Shown one piece after another: positions 14,726 to 63,771 of a stretch of 64,000 nt of DNA. A model generated the notes under the pieces. It was not told the DNA's origin. It searched no databases and saw nothing but the letters and a program-made list of their open reading frames with translations. Numbering within the stretch: the first letter of the stretch is position 1; every line of letters begins with the position of its first letter. Both the position numbers and the translations under genes were made by a program. The stretch comes from Branchiostoma floridae (lineage: Eukaryota > Chordata > Leptocardii > Amphioxiformes > Branchiostomatidae): assembly GCF_000003815.2 (NCBI RefSeq), contig NC_049980.1, forward strand, positions 30,869,045 through 30,933,044, in the 5' to 3' direction.

Positions 14726-15840
14726 GTTTGAGTGACCATTGATATTCATGTTTTCCCCTGTGGGGGAATGCATAATTGTTTTGCTGGTGTGTTCTTTTTC
14801 TGTCAGTAGCCAATCAGAGCTTAGGTTAGATTTTAGCTTGGTTGTAACAAATGAGAGCTTTTTTTTTCACGCACACAAAGTGACACAATACTATGAGCCT
14901 AATGGTGAAGAACAATTATGTTAATTACCTGGTCCAATAACTAAACAGATTATGTTTTTTTATCCTCACACAATACTACAGGGTGAGCCTAATGGTATAA
15001 TGGTATTGCGTGGGAGTAGCTAGACAAAATGCTACGGGAAAAAACTTTCTGCTGGAAATAAAGCCCTGGTCCACTGTTCATAGTACTTGTCAAAAACACC
15101 TGCAAATACAGCATCTGTCTTCTGTCACAACCAGTAGAGGATTAGCTCCTCAGCAAGCTTAACTGCTCACATTCATCGTTATATAGGGCTAGCATATCAC
15201 TTATCAATCTGCATTTTAAACATTCAACACGGTATACTACATATATATGGGCATTCAACATTAATGTCATCAATATTTTCCATACATCATCTTGTTACAT
15301 ACACAGGAATGTGATTATCAGAAGAATCAGAATGTACAATGTGCTTCTACTGGTTAGAAAAGCCTGTTTAAGTGACATTTGACAAGGGGCTTTCCATACC
15401 TATTTCTTTCACACTTTTCCACATAACATATACAATGTACTAACATCGGTTTACAGAGCAGTGGATGATTCAAAAGCCTTTGCAACAGTGGCTCTCATCT
15501 GCTACTTCTGCATGTCTGACCCTGAATCCTTGTGTATAAATCAGTACTAGTGACTACAGGTCTTTGTATACTGAGGACCTGTCACCATCTGGCTGTTGTG
15601 GCCACTTGCCGACTGCTGCCTAACCCGCATCAGGGACCCCAGCAGCTACAATATAATAAAACACTGAATGCTACTACTTGGGGGTAGCCTAGAATCCAGC
15701 CATAATATAACTACTGAGTCTCTTCTGTCCAAGGAGAGATTTGTAATTGCATATAGCTAAATCAGTGTGACTGTTCTCCATGCAGAGGTTTCGTTTGGAG
15801 GGATAGTAGTGGCTGGGATTTCTTATGGCAGCAGTGATTC

Positions 15841-15990
15841 AGTCCACATATGCCAGGTTCCCTTCATTCCCTACATACATGTCTATTGCGGCCATGCCGT
15901 GCAGGTACAGTGGACAGGGCAGAGTCCCCTCCCATTTCCCATTGGTCCTCGGACGGGTCATACGACTTGATAATGTCGGCAGGCTCACAT
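15841..15990 (-). pseudogene. Partial, frameshifted copy of the last kelch-gene exon
   Basis: On the minus strand this copies the 3' end of the KLHL24-like exon 6 (compare 16197-16340), including the terminal GTGGACTGA. It carries a one-base insertion after the WEM codons, and His to Asp and Lys to Met changes near the end, so it is not translatable. It lies directly downstream of the gene, in its 3' UTR or flank, and has no splice acceptor. Confidence 0.85.
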
Positions 15991-16196
15991 AAGGGTAGGC
16001 TCATTAATATTTATAAGCAGGGCGGTCAGGAACTGGTAGTGACGGTTGAGAAAGCAGAGTACAGACAATAGGCGGTTTGCCGGTGCCGCTCTGCGTAAGA
16101 GAAGGGGAGATTAAGGATGCCCAAATGTAGTTAGTACTTGTGATCTAACCGACATACTTCGGGTCAATCCTTATGTTAATGCATACAACTTATAGT

Positions 16197-19100
16197 TCAG
16201 TCCACATAAGCCAGGTTCCCTTCGTTCCCGACATATTTGTGTATGGCAGCCATGCCGTGTAGGTACAGCGGACAGGGCAGTGTCCCCTCCATCTCCCATT
16301 GGTCCTCGGACGGGTCGTAAGACTCGATACTGTCATCCGGCATGCTCACGCTGTCCGGCTTCCCGCCCGCCACATATATCTTGCCTCCCAGGCTCGTCGC
16401 CGCGTGGAATGTACGCGGTATGTTCATGTCCGCCACACGATACACCTCCATCGTGCTTGGGTCCAGCACCAGAACCTTGTTGGAGAAATCAAACATGTCA
16501 AATGCATCATTACCATAACCCATGTGATAGAAGACATAATTATGTACTTTTTACCACCAACTGTGCAATAGCTGTACTTTGTAGACATACTTGTTTCAAC
16601 TTCCCTGTGCTGGTCAAATGTACTCTAACTCATGTGATACCGAACATGTAATTTCTATCACTACCTGACGTGTGCAATAATTGTAGATTGTAGAAATACT
16701 AGTCCTATTGCCCTTAACAAATGTACTTTTACTCATGTGATAGTAGGAACTAGTACTTTGTATTACTCCCTGTACAATAGCTATAGATTATAGAAATACT
16801 TAGTTTTTGACAAAATTTTATGTACTATTTGTTTTAAGAATAATTTATGCTTTGAAAAAAAAAAGAACCTTGTTGGAGAAGCCGCCGATGAGGTAGATCT
16901 TGGCATCCATCACCACAGCAACGGCGCAGCGGTTCTCGACAAGAGGGAGTTCTACGGTCTCCCAAACAACGGCCTCGGGGTCGAAGATCTGCACCAGGCT
17001 CGAGTCTGAGCCGTCGTTACAGACGCCGCCCATCACGAACATTCTGTCCTGGCAGGTCGCCACGGCAGGGCTGCTCACGGCGGTCGGCAGCGGGACCGTG
17101 GCCTGCCATTGGTTGGAGGTGGGGTCGTATTTCTCCACCTGCATGAATCCGAAAATAATTTCATCAGGTTGGTAGATCAGAGGACATAAGAGTTTTCTTT
17201 TACACAACCAGTTTTTCTCACCTGCTGACGTTTCGATGTCTGTCGGCTTCATATAGCTGCAAGAAGCAGAACTCCAGTTAGAACCTCTGAGGAAGACGTT
17301 TGACAGACATCAAAACGTCTGCAGGTGAGACAAACTGGTCCCACCCGTACCCCTATGAATGAATGTACGACTATGAATGGTTCGTTGCTATGGGTGGGTT
17401 AACCTGTACAGAAAATTCAGGCACAGGTCCATTTCAGGTCCAGAGGATCAGGTCCAAACCTGAACCCGGACCTAATTGAGAAAAGTTGTAAATGAGTGAT
17501 ACTCCAAACAATGGTCCATTTTGCTATATAGAAATCAATTTGGTGGAGGATCTGATGGCATTCTAAAATACTATCTTCTTGTAAAAAAGTTTGACTTTGT
17601 AGAAATGACTATAAATTCTACTCTACTTTGCTCTTGTTATTTTCTTGAAATTTGCAATAAACTTTACAAACACAGAAAATAATGAAAGAATAGAATGATG
17701 ACGAAAATGCACCAACCTGGCTGAGCCGTTTGTTTCCATCGAACCCACCGACAACATAAATCTGTCCCTTCAGAACGCACGACCCATGGCGGTAACGAGC
17801 CACCAACAGACTTGCCACAAACCGCCAGTCATCCAGACAGGAGTCGTAGCAACACACCCGACACAGCGGCCTTCCCTTGAACACCCCTCCAATGAGATAG
17901 ATGTCGTTCACAAGGGTGACAACACTGTACTGTTCCTCGTTTCTCCGTGGAATGCTTTTCAGTGGGATCCAGCTACTGGTGATGGGGCTCCTGTAGTGGA
18001 CTGTGTTCAGCGTAGCTTCTTCGTACTCGCCTCCCAGCACCAGCATCACTTCTGCGAATCCCGTGGACAGTCTGGGCCTGGTGCGGGGACTCTGCAGCTC
18101 GTGACGTTTGTACGTCAGAAGCTGGTAACGTCTCGCTTCCACCACTAACTCCTGACACTCCTTGGAGTCGCGTATCAGGGAATCCGTCTCGACCGTGTCC
18201 AGTAAGAATTCAGACCTAACGAGCGGCAGCCGCACTACAGACATGACCTTCGCGAGACTGTCCTTTCTTGTCTCGACGTCGTACCGTACCCACGCCATGG
18301 CGACCTCGAACACCGCCTCCTCGGAATCTGTGTTGATGTCATCACTGGAGAGCAGCTCCATGAAGCTTTCCTCGGGGATCTGCAGAATCTCCTGATGCTG
18401 GGACACCTTCGAAGATATTAGAATATGTACTTATAACTTTTGTTCTCTAAGGCCACACCAATTTTATTTGTTGCTTCTCAGATTTGCCTGCCATTTTTTT
18501 TTTCATTTTCAAAATTAAGTCCCAAGAAAAAATAATACAGGTTTTGCTATCACAAGCCTGTGAATATTACCATTCAGAGCCACATACACATATTTTGGTC
18601 CTAAAACAATGCCTTTTATTCAGAAAATTAGTATCAAATCAAAGGAAGGCTTCATTGTATAAAACATGTCATTTAACATCTCAGGCTGTTGTGTTATTCA
18701 AGCCATTTATCTTCATGCTTTTCATGAATAAATAAAGGTTTAAACAAACAAACGCACCTCCAGAAAGTGCTGCAGGGAAAACTCCCGCGCCTTGGCGTAC
18801 AGCTCGGTGCAGGAGAGGGCGTCGGCCAGGTGCTGCACCCCCAGGCAGTTACAGGGGTCCAGGTTCTTGGTGAGGAAGCGACAGCAGCCATCTCGAAGCG
18901 ACGAACACTGGAACATGCAGGCGGCCTCCAGGAGCGCCTGGGCGTTGTGAGATGTGATCCGTACCCTTCCGGTGTACACGTACTGAACCAGCTCCCCCAT
19001 CACACTGGCTTTCACCTGCAGTGGGAAACAGTGACTGAGTTAGAGCTTAGAACATAGAGACGAACACTGGAACATACAGGCGGCCTCCAGGAGCGCCTGG

Positions 19101-22100
19101 GCGTTGTGGGAGGTGATGCGAACCCTTCCGGTGTACACGTACTGTACCAGCTCCCCCATCACACTAGCTTTCACCTGCAGACAGTAGGAAATGGTGAGAA
19201 CAAGTTTTCCACACTGAGACTATAGTTAGGAGGGCCTGGGCGTTGTGGGAGGTGATGCGAACCCTTCCGGTGTACACGTACTGGACCAGCTCCCCCATCA
19301 CACTGGCTTTCACCTGTAGACAGTGCCAATGAAAAACAGTGTCAACTTGAAACCAACTAAAGCACCATACAATAGACTTGGACCAGGTGAAAAGCTTGTG
19401 GGAGGTGATCCGTACCCTTCCGGTGTACACATACTGAACCAGCTCCCCCATTACACTGGCTTTCACCTGGAGACAGTGGGAAACAGTGAGAACTTATAAT
19501 TCACTAAGTATCATACAATAGACCTCGACCACAAAATTTTGCATGCGCGCAGTAGAACTATGAGGGAAAATAATTTTGTCGTTGAAACAATTCTCTAGTA
19601 CAGTACTTGTATAGTAACACATTGGACAGGCTTATTTGCAAGTACCAGTAAAACCAAAACAAACAATTCAGGATTTACAGTATGCTTCACAAACCTGGTT
19701 GATTTCTACTTTACAAAAGAACAGAAAAGAAGCAGTTATGCCACCAAACCAGGATTGTGGTGTTCAAAAATTTGAATGTATAATAATATGGGTATCCTCA
19801 CTTGATAACAAACTTGCAGCTAAATTTACATCTTTACGTGGTATACTCACTCAGGTCATCAATATAAATAAAGGCCACGTGCCTGCAGAGCTAATGTGCT
19901 ATCTCGAAGGGTGGATAAACTGGCTATACAGATACAATGTACATCATATACAGACAAACCTGTTTTATTTCTACTTTCTCAGCATTACTACTTCCCTGTT
20001 TACATGTTTGTGCAAATAATTGATTGAAAACCTCTTTGACTTATTTTCAAAACAAAACTTCGTAAACTGGCGCTACCCATACCCGCTGACAAACGAGGTC
20101 ATATAAGGTCAATAGACGACACCAATATTACGGAGGTAAATTGTGTTAAAGTTACGTTCTAATACACTATTGCTTAGATTAATTTACATCACAAAAATTT
20201 CTGAATAAATTGTTACAAAGACAAAATGATGTGAACTTCAGACTATGGTGAATTTTATTCTTACATTTATTAAGAGATAAGTCTAAAATGACGTGACTTT
20301 TCTTGTGAGTACCACATTAGCATAATGGGCGAATCTAACGTGTGAACGCGAGCGGGAACACACGGACGGCGAAGTATCAAAGGATACAAGAAGAAAGATC
20401 AAAGAAATATGACGATACCGGTCTCTTCAGACAATATCAACTGTAGAACATTTAAAACTTTTTATAGCTTTTGTTTTCTTAATACATATAGTGTAAAAAT
20501 CATGTATTATGTGAATAAAGATCAGTGGGTACTAAAACCATGTGTAACTTATTGCTTGTGGTCAATTAATTAGCATATTCTCTATAGTGGCCACCTCTCT
20601 ATAGTGGCCAATTTTGACCAGTCCCTTGAGTGGCCGCTATAGACAGGTTTGACTGTACTTTTATGTTTGTAGTTTTTGCAACTAAGTAAACAAACAAACC
20701 TGTTTGATTTCTACTTTTTCTGCATTGCTACTTCACTGTTAACATTTTGTGCAAATAAACAAATAACTTTATTATAACTTTAAAGTACTATGATTTCTCT
20801 TTCTTCACATTTGTTGAAAAAAATTTTTTTCCTGTGACTGGGGAACATTTAATTTGATGTATACAGTTTTTTGGCTCTTGAATAAATAAACAAGCAAACC
20901 TGTTTGATCTCCACTTTCTCTGCGTTGCTGTCCTTCATGTCGCTGCCGAACATGGCGCTGAAGTACGGCACGCTGGCGGCCAGCACAGCGCGGTGACACG
21001 GGAACTCTACTCCATCTGCACACACCACCACGTCCGTGTACTGGCCTAAAACAGTAACAACCAGAACACAACATATCAGAAGGTATGCTGCAGTACTCTA
21101 GAAAGCTGCTAGGGTGGCATGCTGGCGGCCAGCACCGCGCGGTGACACGGGAACTCCACTCCGTCTGCACACACCACCACGTCTGTGTACTGGCCTGAAA
21201 CAGTAACAACCAGAACAGTGCTGCAGTACTCTAGAAAGCTGCTAAGGTGGCACGCTGGCGGCCAGCACCGCGCGGTGACACGGGAACTCTACTCCGTCAG
21301 CACACACCACCACGTCCGTGTACTGGCCTGAAACAGTAAAAACAAGAAATCCAAGATCCTTATGATGGATTTGTATAAATTTTTGGTACGTAGATCTGCA
21401 ATACAAATTTGTATTCCATATCTCTCAAGGTTTTAGCCAGACCACGGAAGGACTGTATATGTATTTATGCCAGAAACCAGAGAAAAATTACGTTTTCAAC
21501 AACTATCAACTGCGCCACACTCAGTGCACGCAGGGTCATTTATTCGACACATGTGATACAGGTAAGACCCCGTGTGATAACGCAAGTTATTACCCAGTCC
21601 GGAACACCTGTATCAAACATTTCTGTGGTCGCAGGTATGACATAAATGCAGTCATTGTATGTTGGTAACTTATTTAATCTCCAAGCAGATCCTACAGTAG
21701 CATAAGATACATGTAGTATCAAAAGCTGGCAGAGGAGTGAAGCCTAGTATTGTGTATGCACCGGTAGCGAGTGATACACAGTTCTCCTAGGCCGGATTCA
21801 CTTCTCTGCCAGCTTTTGATATACATGTACTACTGGAGGATCTGCTTGGAGATTAGTGTACGGCTGACCGCGTAGCCGTTGCTCGTTGAGAGAGTCAAGG
21901 ATGTCGGAAGCGTGGAGGGAGTGGTGGTGCTTGTACCTCAGGTGATAAGGCATACACCGTGTTGTATTCTGTATTTAAATTGTATGTTGGCTGTGATATT
22001 GTGATAAGTGTAAGACTGACCGCGCAGCCGCTGGTCGTTCAGAGAGTCGAGGATGTCGGAAGCGTGGAGGGAGTGGTGGTAGGTGGAGTCGTCCTCCAGC

Positions 22101-56100: not shown

Positions 56101-59100
56101 GTGTGGCCAAAGGGCTATTGAAATGGAAATGGATGCTGCCCTATGAACCATCAGATATGGGAAGGACTTGAAAACCTATCAGGTATTGCAATCTGGCAGA
56201 ATAGCAGATATACTGGTAAAAATCGCGATCTGATGATCTGCATCTCTGCCAGTAAAATCAGAGACTCTGCTGTTAGAGATCCTGGTCTTCATCTATACAC
56301 TCTGTGCATGTTGATATTTGCTTTAAAGATAGTCTGTACTTGTCAGCTGATTCACTTTACGTAAGATCAATGGATTGACTTGAAACTCATGAAATTCATA
56401 CATGGCAGACTGCCTAACACATTCCTAGCATCCCATTTGCGTCCTTTGTTGATGGAGAGACTCTAAACGCAATCCGCCAATTCTGCCAGATTCCATTCTG
56501 AACACAGTCAAACACTATAATGTATATCCCTACCTTCCCTGAGTCTGAGACTGATTTAATTGTTTACTAGCATCCCGATTGCATTCCTTGTTCACAGAAA
56601 GACTCTGAACGCAGTCCGCTAATTGTACCAGATTTCATTCTGTATGCACTTAAACTAAAAAACTGTGTATCCTAACATATACAGGGTTCTCCACAGAATT
56701 TTTTAGTATAGTGGAGGGGCTGGCAAAAATAACCCGCACCAACGTGCTGCACTTTCATGAAAATGGGTTCATTTTGCAATGACAGAGGGTGTCAAATACT
56801 ACAAGTATAATATACTGTTGTTATTCCTTTGTTGTGAAGTGGCAAAACTACTATTGTTTTGATCATTGCTCATTCACAAGTTTTTGCAGACAATGCTGAC
56901 TGGAAAAGTGATGGGTACAAAAATCTGTGAATTGTCATTAATCTTAGCAAAACTAACAAAGAAAATAGGGAAGAAACACACTAAATTTGAAAAATAGTAT
57001 AGTGGAGCTGGCTGAGAGTATAGTGGAGGGCCTCCTTTATTCCACTCTCTGGGGAGAACCCTGATATATATTACCATTCCCGAGACTGATGTAACTGTTT
57101 CCCTACAGGAGAGATTGGAGAGTGAACTTAGAAAGGAGAAGGCAGAGCTCTCCAACATGCGGTTTGACAGAGAGATGTTACTGGAAAGAGAAAAGCAATA
57201 TGGCAGTAAGTATTTTATGGTCCCCTTTGTTGTTAGTGCACAAACTGCTGCAGTGGCCTAATGTGTTGGATGTGTTAAGTATGTTTGTAAGTTTGTAAGT
57301 TCAAATTTTTTTGTATGTTGAGCACTCAGTACTTATGGGGAAAAGTATGGAAGTAGAAGACATACCACTTTCAGTGGACTAGTCGCCTGTTAGGTGCATT
57401 AAAAACAGACTAGCACCACCCTATATACCATATGTTGTAGGAAGGAGTTACTAAACCTTTAACTGTATTAGAAATATTTTTAGAAAGCAGTTTTCAATTA
57501 AAAATTGGTTGCATATTCTATCAAAAATCGTTGGCTTCAACTGTATCATTCTTACTACTACGTTGTACATAAAACCTTTATCCTTCCTGTAGAAAACAGA
57601 AGGAGCATGGCATGGAGCTGTACCCACTGTTCCTGTACCTCTACTTGTACCTGTACCTGTACCTGTACCTGTACTGTACCTGTAACTGTACTGTACCTGT
57701 ACCTGTACCAATCTTACCTTTATCCTTCCTGTAGAAAACATCCAGGACCTGCAGAACAGAGTGTCCCAGCTGTTGACCCAGCAGGACAGACTACAGAAGG
57801 AGCATGGCACAGAGCTGTACCCACTGTACCTGTACCTGTACCTGTACATGTACCTGTACCTGTACATGTACCTGTACCTGTACCTGTACCTGTACCTGTT
57901 CCTGTACATGTACCTGTACCTGTACCTGTTCCTGTACATGTACCTGTACCTTTACCTGTACCTGTACCAATCTTACCTTTATCCTTCCTGTAGAAAACAT
58001 CCAGGACTTGCAGAATAGAGTGTCCCAGCTGCTGACCCAGCAGGATAGACTACAGAAGGAGCATGGCACAGAGCTGTACCCACTGTACCTGTACCTGTAC
58101 CCACTGTACCTGTACCTGTACCCACTGTACCTGTACCTGTACCTGTACCTGTACCAATCTTACCTTTATCTGTCCTGTAGAAAACATCCAGGACCTGCAA
58201 AACAGAGTGTCCCAGCTGCTGACCCAGCAGGACAGACTACAGAAGGAGCATGGCACTGAGCTGTACCCACTGTGCCTGTACCTGTACTGTACCTGTACTG
58301 TACCTGTACCTGTACCTGTACCAATCTTACCTTTACTCTTCCTGTAGAAAACATCCAGGACTTGCAGAATAGAGTGTCCCAGCTGTTAACCCAGCAGGAC
58401 AGACTGCAGAAGGAGCATGGCAAAGAGCTGTACCGACTGTACCTGTACCTCTACCTGTACCTACTGTACCTGTACCTGTACCTGTACCTGCACCAATCTT
58501 ACCTTTATCCTTCCTGTAGAAAACATCCAGGACTTGCAGAATAGAGTGTCCCAGCTGTTGACCCAGCAGGACAGACTACAGAAGGAGCATGGCACAGAGC
58601 TGGGGCGCTTCCAGAGCAAGGCCCTGGCGGACGTGGAGAGAGAGAAGAAGGATGCAGCACAGAGGGCCAGGATACTGGAAGGGGAGCTGGATGCACTCAA
58701 AGTGGAGGTAGGCTGATAAGGCATTGGTAATTAATGTTTTACCAGAAGTTTGATGATAAAGAATATGTCAATATGTTTGGATAGTGTTCAGCACCAAGGA
58801 TAGGCATGTTGACCTGTATATGGGTGGTGTTCAGTACAAGGGACAGGTGTGTTTACCTGTTTGTGGATAGTGTTCAGCACCAAGGACAGGCATGTTGACC
58901 TGTATATGGGTGGTGTTCAGTACAAAGGACAGGTGTATTTAACTGTGTATGGATGGTGTTTAGCACCAAGGACAGGCATGTTCACCTGTATATGGGTGGT
59001 GTTCAGTACAAGGGACAGGTGTGTTTAGCTGTGTATGGATGGTGTTTAGCACCAAGGACAGGCATGTTCACCTGTATATGGGTGGTGTTCAGTACAAGGG

Positions 59101-62100
59101 ACAGGTGTGTTTAGCTGTGTATGGATGGTGTTCAGCACCAAGGACAGGCATGTTGACCTGTATATGGGTGGTGTTCAGTACAAGGGACAGGTGTGTTTAG
59201 CTGTGTATGGATGGTGTTTAGCACCAAGGACAGGCCTGGTCACCCTTGTGTTTAGCACCATATGCCAGAAGTTGAGGTAGGCTGACGAGGCATTGAAGTC
59301 ACAGGTAATGTTTTGCCAGACGTTTGATATGAAAAATTATATCAATGCTTGGAAATATGAAGGCATCTGATTATTAAGTGTGTCTATTTCAGGAGAATTG
59401 AAAAGATTTAAATGAAAAGATTGAACAGCCAAAGATTACCAAAAAGTATTTTGAATTATTTATTGTCTTGAAGAAAGAAAGCTCTCAAGGGATCCCCAAG
59501 TAGATGATATTATTGACAAACACAATCACCAGGGTTATAGTCAGGATTTCATTTTAGCGAAGTGGGAATGTCATGGTAGCAAAGCGACAAATCAGGAGAT
59601 TGATGAGATTTTGACAATGTCGAGTTAAAAGTTGGCACTCTATTAACATCACATGTAATTTGAAGGATTTTTGGTCAGTTTTGAATGGCATATCATCATT
59701 TTTCATTGTTCAGACATTGATTAGACATTGCTGAACAACAAAATGATAGCAAAGCACCACTTCACATGTTAAAAACTAGCGTAGTGGCCCTTATTTTAGC
59801 GTAGTGGTCACAAATTTTAGCGTAGTGGCCCACTACGCTAAAATGCACTAGCTAGAACCCTGCAATCACAATTGTGCATATGTCATTTAGCACCAAGGAA
59901 TTGCTTGATAATAGTTTTATGGATGGTATTCGGTGCCAAGGAGAGGCTTGTGTGTGGTGTGGATAGTGTTCAGCACTAAGGGCAGGTATGTTACCTGTGT
60001 GTGGATGGTGTTCAGCACCAAGGACAGGTATATTACCTGTGTGTGGATGGTGTTCAGCACCAGGGACAGGCATGTTTACCCGTGTGTGGATGGTGTTCAG
60101 CACCAAGGACAGGCATTGCTATCTTTGTATGGATGGTGTTCAGTGCCAAGGAGAGATTTGTTTGCCTGTGTGTGGATGGTGTTCAGTGCCAAGGAGATAT
60201 TTGTTTGCCTATGTGTGGATGGTGTTCAGCACCAAGGACAGGCATTGTTATCTTTGTGTGGATGGTATTCAGTGCCAAGGAGATATTTGTTTGCCTGTGT
60301 GTGGATGGTGTTCAGTGCCAAGGAGATATTTGTTTGCCTATGTGTGGATGGTGTTCAGTGCCAAGGAGATATTTGTTTGCCTATGTGTGGATGGTGTTCA
60401 GCACCAGGGACAGGCATTGCTATCTTTGTGTGGATGGTGTTCAGTGCCAAGGAGATATTTGTTTGCCTGTGTGTGGATGGTATTCAGCACCAAGGACAGG
60501 CATGCTTTCATGTGGATGCAGTAGCAACATTATAACCATGATTGTTAACGTCATATCACATAGTATGAACATAACTTCTGTTGTTGCCCCCTTGCAGAAT
60601 GCATCTCTAGAAAAACAGTTGAGAGTGGCTAAGACCACGAGTGCTCTGGCGAAGGAATCAGACAGGACTGGTCGGGAGAGGCATCAGTCTGAACTCAGAA
60701 ATATGCAGGTGAGATTACCTTGTATTGATTTGTCTACCAGACATTATACGTTGTCATGTATTAGACCTAGAAAAAATCGTGGTGTTCCAGGCTAGGCCTA
60801 GGAGAAAAATGTTGTGTTTCCTGTTTCCCTACCTACCCTAGAAAAACCTGCCGACCCTAGCCTTTTTGGGGGTGGGAATTTTTATTCAGCCTGCTTCCTA
60901 TTGGAGAGTAAACACTGCTTGTCCTATCTTATGAAGGATAAATTTATCCATTATGCACAAAATTAAAGATTGACATTGAAAGACAATTAGTGTCCTCATG
61001 CATTTCAGTTTACTTTGTTCAACTGGATTGTAACATGTATGACACTAGAGTTTTGGCCAGCCTAAAAAAAATTACAAGAAAAAAAAATCCGTACCCTAAT
61101 TTTTTCTGGACTGAAACAGGAAACACAACCTTTTTTTTACGGGCCTTACCTGACCTATTTGTTTCCTATTTTTTGAAAAGCTTCTTACTAGAAATGCCAT
61201 CATTGTACATCAATTTTTCTGCACCCTATGATAGCAATCATGGTTAACATTCAAACAAATAAAATTTGGTAAAGCCAACACTGATGTTATCAAAAATTCT
61301 GAAGATCTTGCAAGTGATACAAATATTTTATGACTGTCATCATGATTATACTTAGTTGTTTATCTTGTATATGGTCCAAGAGACCTGAGTATGTTGTCCC
61401 ACTACAACATATGGTACATACAGTAAATGTTACATTAGTACAACATTTTGTAATACCTGCTATGTCTTGTCGTGATTACTTCTGGAATTTTCAACCTGTA
61501 AACCTTTCAATTTTCTTACTCTTTTAGGATGAGATCAGATGCACACCCACAAGCAGTGAACTTGCTGCATATTGTAGTGATGCATGCCATGTCATGATTC
61601 CTTCTTGAATTTTCAGTCTGTAAAAACTAAAATGTTTCTTCCTCTTACAGGATGAGATCAGAAGAACCCACCAGCTCCTGGCCGAGCAGGAGAAAGTTGT
61701 GGAGGAGAGCAACAAGAAGAGCAATCAGATGCACGAGAAGTTCACAAAAGCCAGGGAACAGAAGACTCAGCTGGAGAGAGACTCAGAAAACAGCAGAAGT
61801 GTTGCAGAGCAAAGAGTGAGTTGGAGATTTCTGTTGGAAACTCTACTTTTCACACTTAAATTACAAAACCAGTTGGTGCTGAATTTTTGACAAATTTTGT
61901 TTGCTGTTTGGGCTTAGCTTTGTATCATGAAATTCATACAATGTATTATTGAGAAAATGTAGTACATTAATAGCAGAATAACAACTTGCTGAAGAATCTG
62001 TGAGCTTTAAAGGACATGTTTGCAACAATGCTACAAGGACCTCTCAATCCCTGCCCAGTTTTACAATTTTGCTAAAGGAAAAGCTCAAAATTACATGTAT

Positions 62101-63771
62101 TACATTATAGATGAGGTTCATGTTATGTCTTCTTCACTTTCAGATTAAAACATTAGAGGGTAGAGCCAAAGTGCAGAGGAAACCTAGAGTTGGCAAGGAC
62201 TGAACATTCCGAGGAACTAGCCAAAACTAGAGAAGAACTTATCACTCAAGTCATGCAGCTACAGGTACAGAACATTTGTAGTCACAGCTTGTCATCAGCT
62301 CAACATGCTCAATAAGGAATACAATGCAATTGCCAGCTCAAAAAGGACTGTTAAACATGAAAGCTGCTTCAAGAGCCCAACAGCTTTATGCCACACAAAA
62401 ATCCTGACCATACCATGTCTGGATCATGAGATATCAAAACGTATCTGTTTGCATGTGTGTTGCTGCAATTCCCAACATACAGAATCCAGCATTGCTACAT
62501 GACACAATCCTGTATATCATTAGTACTGTAATTTTTTGTGTGACTGGAAAGGTCACAAAGCAGTAAATATGATTGCTTTGTTTTCCTTTCATTTAATGTC
62601 TAATAAGACAATTATTATATTACTATAGACAGTGTCTAGACAATACTCTTGGGGGGGGGATACTCTTATAGAAAGATATACACTCAATGTACTTAAATGC
62701 TATTAACTTATGTACCTATTCAGTACTCTTATATACTCTATTCCCTTGCATATATCTCAGACCAAGCAGCCAGAGCTGCCCTGCCCTTGACTGGTATAGC
62801 ATCTGTCATTTACATGGCATGTTTGAAAACTATTTTTGATATCAGTCCTTAATCATTGAATATTTGTATCCATTGCGTATGTCCCAGACCAAGCAGTCAG
62901 AGTTGTCCCGTCTCCTGACCATAGAGAGAGAGAAGACCAAGTCTCTGCAGTCCACAGTCAGGCACCTGGAGGACCTATAATAGTATACGTACTTTATACA
63001 GCACACTTACCTTGTACATATTCCATTCCTTTTTGAATCCAGACCAAGCAGTCGGAGTTGTCCCGGCTCCTGACCATAGAGAGAGAGAAGACCAAGTCCC
63101 TGCAGTCCACAGTCAGGCACCTGGAGGACCTACTTACTCTGTACAGTACACTTACATATTTCATTCCCTTTTGAATCTCCCAGACCAAGCAGTCGGAGTT
63201 GTCCCGGCTCCTGACCATAGAGAGAGAGAAGACCAAGTCTCTGCAGTCCACAGTCAGGCACCTGGAGGACCTATAATAGTATACGTACTTTATACAGCAC
63301 ACTTACCTTGTACATATTCCATTCCTTTTTGAATCTCCCAGACCAAGCAGTCGGAGTTGTCCCGGCTCCTGACCATAGAGAGAGAGAAGACCAAGTCCCT
63401 GCAGTCCACAGTCAGGCACCTGGAGGACCTACTTACTCTGTACAGCACACTTACATATTCTATTCCTTTGTGAATATCCCAGACCAAGCAGTCAGAGTTG
63501 TCGCGTCTCCTGACCATAGAGAGAGAGAAGACCAAGTCTCTGCAGTCCACAGTCAGGCACCTGGAGGACCTATAGTATATGTACTCTGTACAGTACACTC
63601 ACATATTCCATTCCCTTCTGACTATCCCAGACCAAGCAGTCGGAGTTGTCCCGGCTCCTGACCATAGAGAGAGAGAAGACCAAGTCTCTACAGTCCACAG
63701 TCAGGCATCTGGAGGACAGGCTGGAGCGACAGCGATCCTCATCCAGGAGCTCTGGTTTCGCAGGTTCGGAG
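50123..63771 (+). CDS. Long coiled-coil protein gene (5' unresolved, 3' continues beyond window)
   Basis: Exons with consistent phases are 50123-50178, 51233-51293, 51705-51909, 52366-52472, 53830-53945, 54441-54488, 55732-55812, 57109-57205, 58520-58707, 60598-60708, 61651-61815, 62144-62264 and 63631-63771, about 500 codons. The first third is basic and Ser/Arg-rich (SRDSRAVRESKSVKFHRK, RIKRRASIATGRPAI, SLRSLRAGTPPLLGSRPSSG). From 57109 on it is heptad-rich coiled coil (ERLESELRKEKAEL, NRVSQLLTQQDRLQKEH, HQLLAEQEKVVEESNKK, SELSRLLTIEREKTKSL). This layout suits a centrosomal or cytoskeletal scaffold, but I cannot name the family. Exon 62144-62264 is 121 nt where 120 would keep frame: an extra base near 62178 creates an early stop. 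Two exons have tandem partial copies. Confidence 0.75.
53120..53500 (+). repeat. Degenerate tandem repeat, period about 130-140 bp
   Basis: Three units share CTTCTCTTA, GGTCTATTGCAGGTGTT and CTTGCTTGGGTGTCTG-like segments. It lies in the intron after 52472. Confidence 0.5.
55159..55191 (+). other. Possible 33-nt microexon of the coiled-coil gene
   Basis: The sequence between GTCGGCAG and GTACATG encodes YRVFGTRRKRN, phase 0 on both sides, so it could be included or skipped without a frame change between exons 54441-54488 and 55732-55812. The basic composition fits its neighbours. The acceptor tract CTTTCCTCCTCTCTTGACGC is good; the donor is weak. Confidence 0.35.
55895..56175 (+). mobile_element. 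tRNA-derived SINE
   Basis: The head has a box A-like GTGGCCAGAGTGTTCGCC and a box B-like GAGTTTGATCCCC about 30 nt apart, ending CGAGTCATACC. The body (GCTGAGCATTCAGCATTTGG, ACCACTGCCGGTGGACTA, GATGCTGCCCTATGAACCAT) is shared with a decayed copy at 57225-57440. It lies in an intron of the coiled-coil gene, sense orientation. Confidence 0.75.
56682..57064. mobile_element. TIR element with CAGGGTTCTCC ends
   Basis: It begins CAGGGTTCTCCACAGA and ends TCTGGGGAGAACCCTG, about 383 bp. TAGTATAGTGGAG repeats lie near both ends. CAGGG..CCCTG termini are hAT-like, but the flanks (AACATATA, ATATATAT) give no clear 8-bp duplication because both are AT repeats. Confidence 0.65.
57225..57440 (+). mobile_element. 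Decayed copy of the tRNA-derived SINE
   Basis: The part GTTGAGCACTCAGTACTTAT .. TTTCAGTGGACTAGTCGCCT .. CACCACCCTATATACCAT matches the body of the SINE at 55895-56175. The box A/B head is barely recognisable. Confidence 0.55.
57585..58430 (+). repeat. Array of acceptor-side half-exons joined to a (CTGTAC)n microsatellite
   Basis: Four 83-nt copies of the start of exon 58520-58707 lie at 57735, 57994, 58181 and 58348, plus a deleted remnant at about 57590. Each is preceded by an intact acceptor (CTTTATCCTTCCTGTAG) and all end at GAGCTG, where CTGTAC repeats begin. They encode NIQDLQNRVSQLLTQQDRLQ then KEHGTEL; the only amino-acid change seen is Thr to Lys in the copy at 58348. They have no usable donor in frame. 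Unit spacing is 167-259 bp. The Tyr/Leu- and Thr/Cys-rich ORFs here come from the microsatellite. Confidence 0.88.
58785..59240 (+). repeat. Minisatellite in coiled-coil gene, array 1
   Basis: The higher-order unit is about 86 bp, made of two related halves of about 43 bp (GTGTTCAGCACCAAGGACAG and GTGTTCAGTACAAGGGACAG), about five units. It is related to the array at 59925-60520. Confidence 0.9.
59530..59862. mobile_element. hAT-type small TIR element with CAGGGTT ends
   Basis: The 333-bp element starts CAGGGTTATAGTCAGG..ATTTTAGCG and ends CGCTAAAATGCACTAGC..AACCCTG. It is flanked by CAATCAC at 59523-59529 and 59863-59869, giving a 7- to 8-bp duplication. Repeated GCGTAGTGGCC motifs lie near the right end. 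It sits between the two minisatellite arrays. Confidence 0.8.
59925..60520 (+). repeat. Minisatellite in coiled-coil gene, array 2
   Basis: About fourteen units of roughly 43 bp (GTGTGGATGGTGTTCAGCAC .. AAGGACAGGCAT or .. AAGGAGATATTTGTTTGCC). All three plus-strand frames are open for 178-264 codons. This follows from the unit length not being a multiple of three and lacking stops, so I do not call it coding. Confidence 0.9.
61465..61545 (+). repeat. Partial copy of the acceptor and start of exon 61651-61815
   Basis: GTGATTACTTCTGGAATTTT .. TCTTACTCTTTTAG|GATGAGATCAGA repeats the intron end and first codons of the true exon (ATGATTCCTTCTTGAATTTT .. CTTACAG|GATGAGATCAGA), about 120 bp upstream of it. 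Coding similarity stops after about 12 nt. Confidence 0.65.
62761..63569 (+). repeat. Array of acceptor-side half-exons of exon 63631-63771
   Basis: Five 87-nt copies start at 62888, 63043, 63184, 63342 and 63483, with a decayed sixth at 62761. Each follows an acceptor ending CCAG and encodes TKQSELSRLLTIEREKTKSL then QSTVRHLED, identical to the true exon, with only synonymous differences (for example TCA/TCG, CGT/CGG, TCT/TCC). All break at GAGGAC, where the true exon continues AGGCTGGAG. Steps alternate 155, 141, 158, 141, 148 bp, suggesting a two-unit higher-order repeat. Confidence 0.9.

Follow-up and report, generated by a model that had tools for sequence, protein, structure and literature searches.

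How can copies of half an exon, each running into an in-frame stop, differ from the translated exon almost only at silent positions? The question is raised by two exons of a coiled-coil gene, located in a 64,000-nt stretch of genomic DNA (hereafter the window, contig C2:30869045-30933044 in a 513-Mb, 431-contig assembly).

Organization of the two arrays

A preliminary description of the locus had claimed tandem copies of the 5′ halves of two exons, and such copies are indeed present upstream of both. The repeat unit consists of the intron end and the first 83 nt (array 1) or 87 nt (array 2) of the exon, with identities of up to 92-96% between some units. Array 1 comprises four complete copies and one internally deleted copy on the plus strand. 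TGTAG acceptors precede the outermost, deleted copy, which retains its acceptor and the exon start (57593..57620), the half-exon copies C1 (57735..57817), C2 (57994..58076), C3 (58181..58263), and C4 (58348..58430), and the true exon (58520..58707), whose first 83 nt are common to the copies and which is followed by the donor GTAGGC. The spacer stretch of this array (57621..58519, plus strand) is composed mostly of (CTGTAC)n hexamer tracts, followed by a polypyrimidine tract and AG. Array 2, on the same strand, comprises five good copies and a decayed one, all with CAG acceptors: the decayed outermost copy (62761..62791), which meets an in-frame stop after 27 nt, the half-exon copies U1 (62888..62974), U2 (63043..63129), U3 (63184..63270), U4 (63342..63428), and U5 (63483..63569), and the true exon (63631..63771), sharing its first 87 nt with the copies and followed by the donor GTAAAA. 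A full exon with a donor is found only in the final unit of each array. The cut point claimed to be common to each array is exact in both, all four complete copies of array 1 stopping at GAGCTG, 83 nt into the exon, and all five good copies of array 2 at GGAC, 87 nt into the exon; the claim does not extend to an array in a KLHL gene of the same window, whose copies end at approximately 69, 86, and 119 nt (by eye).

Among the matches listed in the 513-Mb assembly, each true exon is the sole full-length match and neither exon occurs outside its own array, the damaged outer copies not being listed either; no paralogous donor was thus found, and paralogous donors were discounted as a source of the copies. 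No Pfam domain was detected in 187 aa of the coiled-coil protein, the exon at 63631 yielding a sub-threshold match alone. A third exon of the gene (61462..61675, plus strand) has one older upstream copy, consisting of an acceptor and the first exon bases, in which a blind pairwise test found no coding signal. A predicted exon between the arrays (62144-62265) has its frame broken close to a short run of A, for which an allele or a base error may be responsible. Much of the intron after the array 1 exon is occupied by a 43-bp minisatellite in two blocks (58774-60503), which shows no coding-phase bias.

Host genome and relation to published mirages

A search with the mNeonGreen protein yielded 68 exon-level matches in the assembly, with identities of 34-88% and many of them clustered on contigs C4 and C17; the same query also matched PDB entries, amphioxus GFPs included. 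A search with the Pfam GFP family (PF01353) gave no match in the genome, its controls being equally blank. The GFP cluster, together with two globin arrays resembling the BflGb6 and BflGb9 mirages, identifies the host as amphioxus, in all likelihood B. floridae. The two arrays are amphioxus mirages, i.e., minisatellite-like duplications of intron/exon boundaries, a kind of structure that has already been described. Mirages have been reported in Adh3, the globin genes BflGb6 and BflGb9, TnC, and PGBD5 (PMC3087553, PMC3902484), the term being credited to a 2002 paper cited in PMC3087553. The BflGb6 mirage covers the 3′ intron end and the 5′ part of exon 2 in a unit of 150-160 bp, is present in 6 units in one haplotype and 3 in another, and leaves splicing regular as judged by RT-PCR; the BflGb9 mirage, of 157 bp, covers the 3′ boundary of exon 2 (PMC3087553).

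Likeness to the mirages described in PMC3087553 and PMC3902484 extends to the amphioxus host, to tandem units across an intron/exon boundary on its 5′ or 3′ side, to the retention of splice signals in many units, and to an edge unit that escapes homogenization; the difference is that other genes are concerned. In the window, the repeat unit lies across the boundary in both coiled-coil arrays and in the KLHL arrays, AG and an upstream tract precede the copies in four 5′ arrays, and homogenization inside is accompanied by exclusion at the edge, exon and spacer types being shuffled and the outermost copy being internally deleted in one coiled-coil array and decayed in the other. The kind is therefore known; what is confirmed here is an unusually clean synonymous signature in a well-formed pair of mirages. 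The preliminary description named neither this class nor the additional examples in the window. The word "synonymous" does not occur in the main text of PMC3087553 or PMC3902484, and no discussion of such a signature was found in the further literature as represented by search listings.

If haplotypes of a very polymorphic animal had been stacked in tandem by the assembly, differences restricted to synonymous sites would follow. Amphioxus is highly heterozygous, the number of PGBD5 repeats differs between two assemblies (PMC3902484), a draft BflGb6 array has been called aberrantly assembled (PMC3087553), and the frame break at 62144-62265 implies that base errors may exist. Against such stacking, the second exon half is present in no copy, the repeated part being limited to 83 or 87 nt at the exon start; the copies of an array stop at exactly the same point and have spacers peculiar to that array; array 2 contains five distinct exon types, more than two haplotypes can supply, and similar structures in other genes have been backed by traces or re-sequencing (PMC3087553, PMC3902484). 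An assembly artefact is regarded as very improbable.

Splice signals of the copies

The copies had also been claimed to be untranslatable for reasons of stops or frame loss, and all 11 copies of the two arrays do run into an in-frame stop. Between 25 nt into the copy and this stop, the best GT scores -0.95 or lower in 10 copies and the copy at 62761 has no GT; the same donor matrix gives nine predicted real donors scores of 0.14 to 6.58. By this measure the claimed lack of an in-frame donor holds for all 11 copies, a cruder 7-point consensus count being indecisive in array 1, where CATGTACCT in the hexamer tracts and the true donor both reach 4 and are not separated.

In exon definition, acceptor-bearing copies that lack a donor would be passed over. 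Splicing probably ignores the copies, because all of them, in both arrays, lack a competitive donor, and a role as decoy acceptors that splicing must skip, as had been proposed, is plausible. This would agree with the published mirages, by which regular splicing is reportedly undisturbed (PMC3087553, PMC3902484).

Synonymous bias in the coiled-coil gene

The preliminary description had further claimed that copies and true exons differ almost exclusively at third codon positions, and the count of synonymous and nonsynonymous changes for which it called bears this out. Over 81 and 87 codon-aligned nt, and with both damaged outer copies (57593, 62761) excluded, the nine complete copies differ from the true exons by 15 changes, 14 of them synonymous (8:1 synonymous to nonsynonymous in array 1 and 6:0 in array 2). 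Third codon positions account for 12/15 changes and first-position leucine changes for 2/15; the single nonsynonymous change, T to K, is borne by copy C4 (58348). With a transition weight of 2, neutral drift is expected to yield approximately 26-28% synonymous changes, resulting in a joint P of 9.5e-8 for 14/15. Mean synonymous divergence among copies amounts to 0.178 in array 1 and 0.108 in array 2, which is 4.5 and 2.7 times the published synonymous diversity of B. floridae (0.0397; PMC12862219, PMC8994340).

A neutral tandem duplication too young for decay would agree with the high identity of some units and with a copy in a GFP gene that shows 0 synonymous and 3 nonsynonymous changes (see below). 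It is nevertheless very unlikely to account for the arrays, since neutrality predicts a synonymous share of roughly one quarter, as given above, rather than 14/15, or 18/20 among changes private to a copy (see below). Even with a silently changing true exon, no more than approximately 44% would be expected (P = 9e-5 for 14/15), and a mean synonymous divergence of 11-18% is not that of very young copies.

Mirages in the KLHL gene of the same window

Four further mirages with countable changes occur in a KLHL gene of the window, which is encoded on the minus strand and was recognized by its BTB, BACK, and Kelch domains and by alignment to KLHL3. Two of them consist of 5′ copies, each at one exon, and two of 3′ copies with donors, each at one exon end; copy ends were set by eye, short of doubtful codons. 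Three 5′ half-exon copies (19466, 19313, 19174) precede a true start at 19015 (18902..19466, minus strand) and show 11 synonymous and 0 nonsynonymous changes, and two (21327, 21194) precede a true start at 21045 (20967..21327, minus strand), with 5 and 1. One true exon end with its donor (20926) is followed by two downstream copies (20726, 19986) within 19960..20926 (minus strand; 6 synonymous, 0 nonsynonymous), and another by one downstream copy within 21865..22080 (minus strand; 4 synonymous, 1 nonsynonymous). Pooled over six arrays in two genes, 40 synonymous changes stand against 3 nonsynonymous ones (P = 1.9e-20). When the count is restricted to the five arrays that have three or more members, the ratio is 18:2 (P = 2.3e-9) for changes private to one copy and 9:0 for those private to the true exon. 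Since a private change should fall on the copy's own lineage, that lineage was probably translated when it changed; in other words, copy-private changes probably arose while their own lineage sat in the translated exon.

Not every KLHL copy is covered by the absence of a donor. The copy at 19466 (19313-19466, minus strand) keeps an open frame over 153 nt, a length divisible by three, before reaching an in-phase CAG/GTGAAA, which is the acceptor of the next copy and at the same time a potential donor of fair strength (score 2.77) that the copy could use. At 19951-19995 (minus strand), a CAG preceding a 3′ copy delimits, by eye, an in-phase micro-exon-like unit of 36 nt with the donor GTTTGT. 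A downstream copy also exists of the terminal part of the last KLHL exon together with its stop codon (15838-16349, minus strand); it differs in frame and shows 8 synonymous to 3 nonsynonymous changes in the best frame.

Direct selection on copies that are translated in some transcripts, as alternative or micro-exons, would explain the synonymous bias at once, and the open copy at 19466 and the 3′ copy behind an in-phase CAG speak for it. It is given as little credence as young duplication: all 11 copies of the coiled-coil arrays hit in-frame stops with no GT above -0.95 before them, the published mirages reportedly splice normally (PMC3087553, PMC3902484), and an ungapped alignment to KLHL3 is obtained with the true KLHL exons alone.

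For the KLHL 3′ copies, synonymous divergence reaches 0.71 over 27 nt, a value not explained by allelic exchange. Their distances of 200 and 940 nt, combined with homology over 47-73 nt, also make them poor exchange substrates.

Mirages elsewhere in the genome and a blind control

Two globin loci of the assembly carry comparable structures. In the BflGb6-like locus (L014), the true exon is accompanied by three partial units at spacings of 154, 158, and 158 bp, and the BflGb9-like locus (L010) has a 157-bp-spaced duplicate of an exon 3′ end. Without its outermost copy, the BflGb6-like array shows 3:1 synonymous to nonsynonymous changes; the outermost copy shows 7:3 in its first 72 nt, and its inclusion over 93 gapless nt results in 12:18 because it loses the frame. 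The BflGb9-like copy gives 9:3. Two mirages were found in GFP genes: L038 (contig C17) contains a 98-bp-spaced copy of an exon end that appears identical by eye and is uninformative on bias, and L039 (contig C4) is an exon with one 5′ half copy and the 0:3 ratio mentioned above. The synonymous bias is thus strong in the window, weaker in the globin genes, and not universal.

As a control, a blind pairwise coding-phase test was run on 200 kb of contig C1 and on the window. In a self-comparison of the window, simple-repeat stretches and the 43-bp minisatellite were excluded by coordinates. The 200 kb contained 15 tandem families, 11 of them testable and 2 with P below 0.01. The window likewise contained 15, of which 14 were testable; five exon-derived families (15838, 18897, 19947, 57590, 62721) had P below 0.005, and three boundary families did not stand out significantly from shuffles (20967, 7/100; 21851, 5/100; 61462, 61/100). 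None of the six testable families without an assigned exon reached P below 0.01, two of them (16562 and 40580) beating at least 99/100 shuffles. The control is supportive of a coding bias without being clean. A separate tandem array on contig C1 (L029, 4766-8015), with a 351-bp offset and 99% identity, shows 16 synonymous and 5 nonsynonymous changes when read in the frame that fits best.

Probable exchange between copies and the translated exon

Considered as a whole, the observations are probably best explained by exchanging mirage units that pass through the translated exon. Each unit extends from the intron end into the exon, so that every copy comprises an acceptor and half an exon and no competitive donor. 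The last unit alone is joined to the remainder of the exon and its donor; the spliceosome would use this unit and treat the rest as intron. As the patterns described below suggest, unequal crossing-over or conversion would move units among the positions of an array and from one homologous chromosome to another. Lineages would in this way repeatedly traverse the single translated position, where nonsynonymous changes are purged, and copies that drop out of exchange would decay. The copies would then resemble translated sequence because units are exchanged between positions and homologues.

The effect of such exchange was illustrated by simulation of 150 haplotypes with four copies and one functional unit each, at a synonymous diversity of 0.0397 and with six replicates per setting; nonsynonymous changes were lethal in the functional unit and copy number was fixed. 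The synonymous fraction was 0.30 with no exchange. Exchange restricted to one haplotype, with 0.34-0.56, was discarded as falling short of the observed bias, almost no differences being left at 0.56. Copying from the true exons of other haplotypes produced 0.88-0.99, and two-way exchange between haplotypes 0.51-0.95, climbing with the rate. Fractions of at least 0.85 were obtained only under frequent exchange between haplotypes. An earlier simulation at higher diversity, with two replicates, ranked the settings in the same order: the fraction was 0.32-0.49 for exchange within a haplotype and rose to as much as 0.84-0.93 for exchange between haplotypes. The settings that reach 0.85 retain 1.4-3.6 synonymous columns as compared with the 8 and 6 observed, and the amount of silent difference is thus not fully explained by simulated exchange.

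Signs of exchange are also present in the sequences themselves. Two pairs of sites in array 1 show all four gametes, and in array 2 the exon types A/T (U1, U5) and G/G (U2, U3, U4) are paired with differing spacers. Together with the simulations, these signs uphold the core of the earlier proposal that the copies were taken from functional alleles or are kept similar by conversion; recent copying from alleles alone is insufficient, considering that the copies diverge by 18% and 11% at synonymous sites, well beyond the allelic level.

A related scenario is that of a master copy, in which the true exons of various haplotypes seed the copies in one direction and units never return to the functional position. 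It accounts for the bias, one-way copying yielding the highest synonymous fractions in the simulation, and it predicts approximately allelic divergence, which the copies exceed by the factors of 4.5 and 2.7 given above. Two-way exchange can store old lineages and leans in the right direction on silent diversity, which was only slightly higher than under one-way seeding, so that the simulated margin is small. One-way seeding is unlikely, if less so than any other alternative to passage of exchanging units through the translated exon.

Relation to duplicated exons, donor cassettes, and intron gain

Tandemly duplicated, mutually exclusive exons also place coding copies under coding constraint beside an exon. 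In contrast to these, the copies described here comprise one splice site and half an exon and thus cannot replace the true exon; none of the 11 combines its acceptor with a donor, no GT exceeding the -0.95 stated above, with the cruder count being indecisive in array 1. Silent donor cassettes, such as those of bacterial pilS and the chicken immunoglobulin pseudogenes, are truncated untranslated copies with possible exchange with one expressed copy. While such cassettes diversify the protein, half-exon copies differ almost only silently, with 1 amino-acid difference in nine complete copies.

In the model of Rogers, cited in PMC3087553, introns are gained by tandem duplication of AG/GT; mirages have been proposed as raw material for new introns, and intron gain has been proposed for globin genes (PMC3087553). 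The duplications described here are of the same kind, the two arrays being without a new intron, and a possible case exists in the KLHL gene of the window. Its intron at 16470-16890 (minus strand) has a 17-nt direct repeat, TTCTCCAACAAG/GTTCT, across both ends and degenerate tandem units of approximately 109 bp inside, and may have been gained through such a duplication.

Implications

The half-exon copies and the translated exon may constitute one pool, from which units of different haplotypes take turns in the one functional position. Purifying selection at the protein level would thereby shape untranslated intron DNA, and the pool would store old silent variants, so that diversity would be higher in the first exon half than elsewhere in the gene; this extension is tentative and possible rather than probable. 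For annotation, the copies are a warning that incomplete exons may be taken for genuine ones when their acceptors are good and hardly any amino acid has changed, and that coding constraint on a copy outside the translated sequence does not necessarily imply translation. In amphioxus, the synonymous signature offers a gauge of how often mirage repeats exchange with the working exon.
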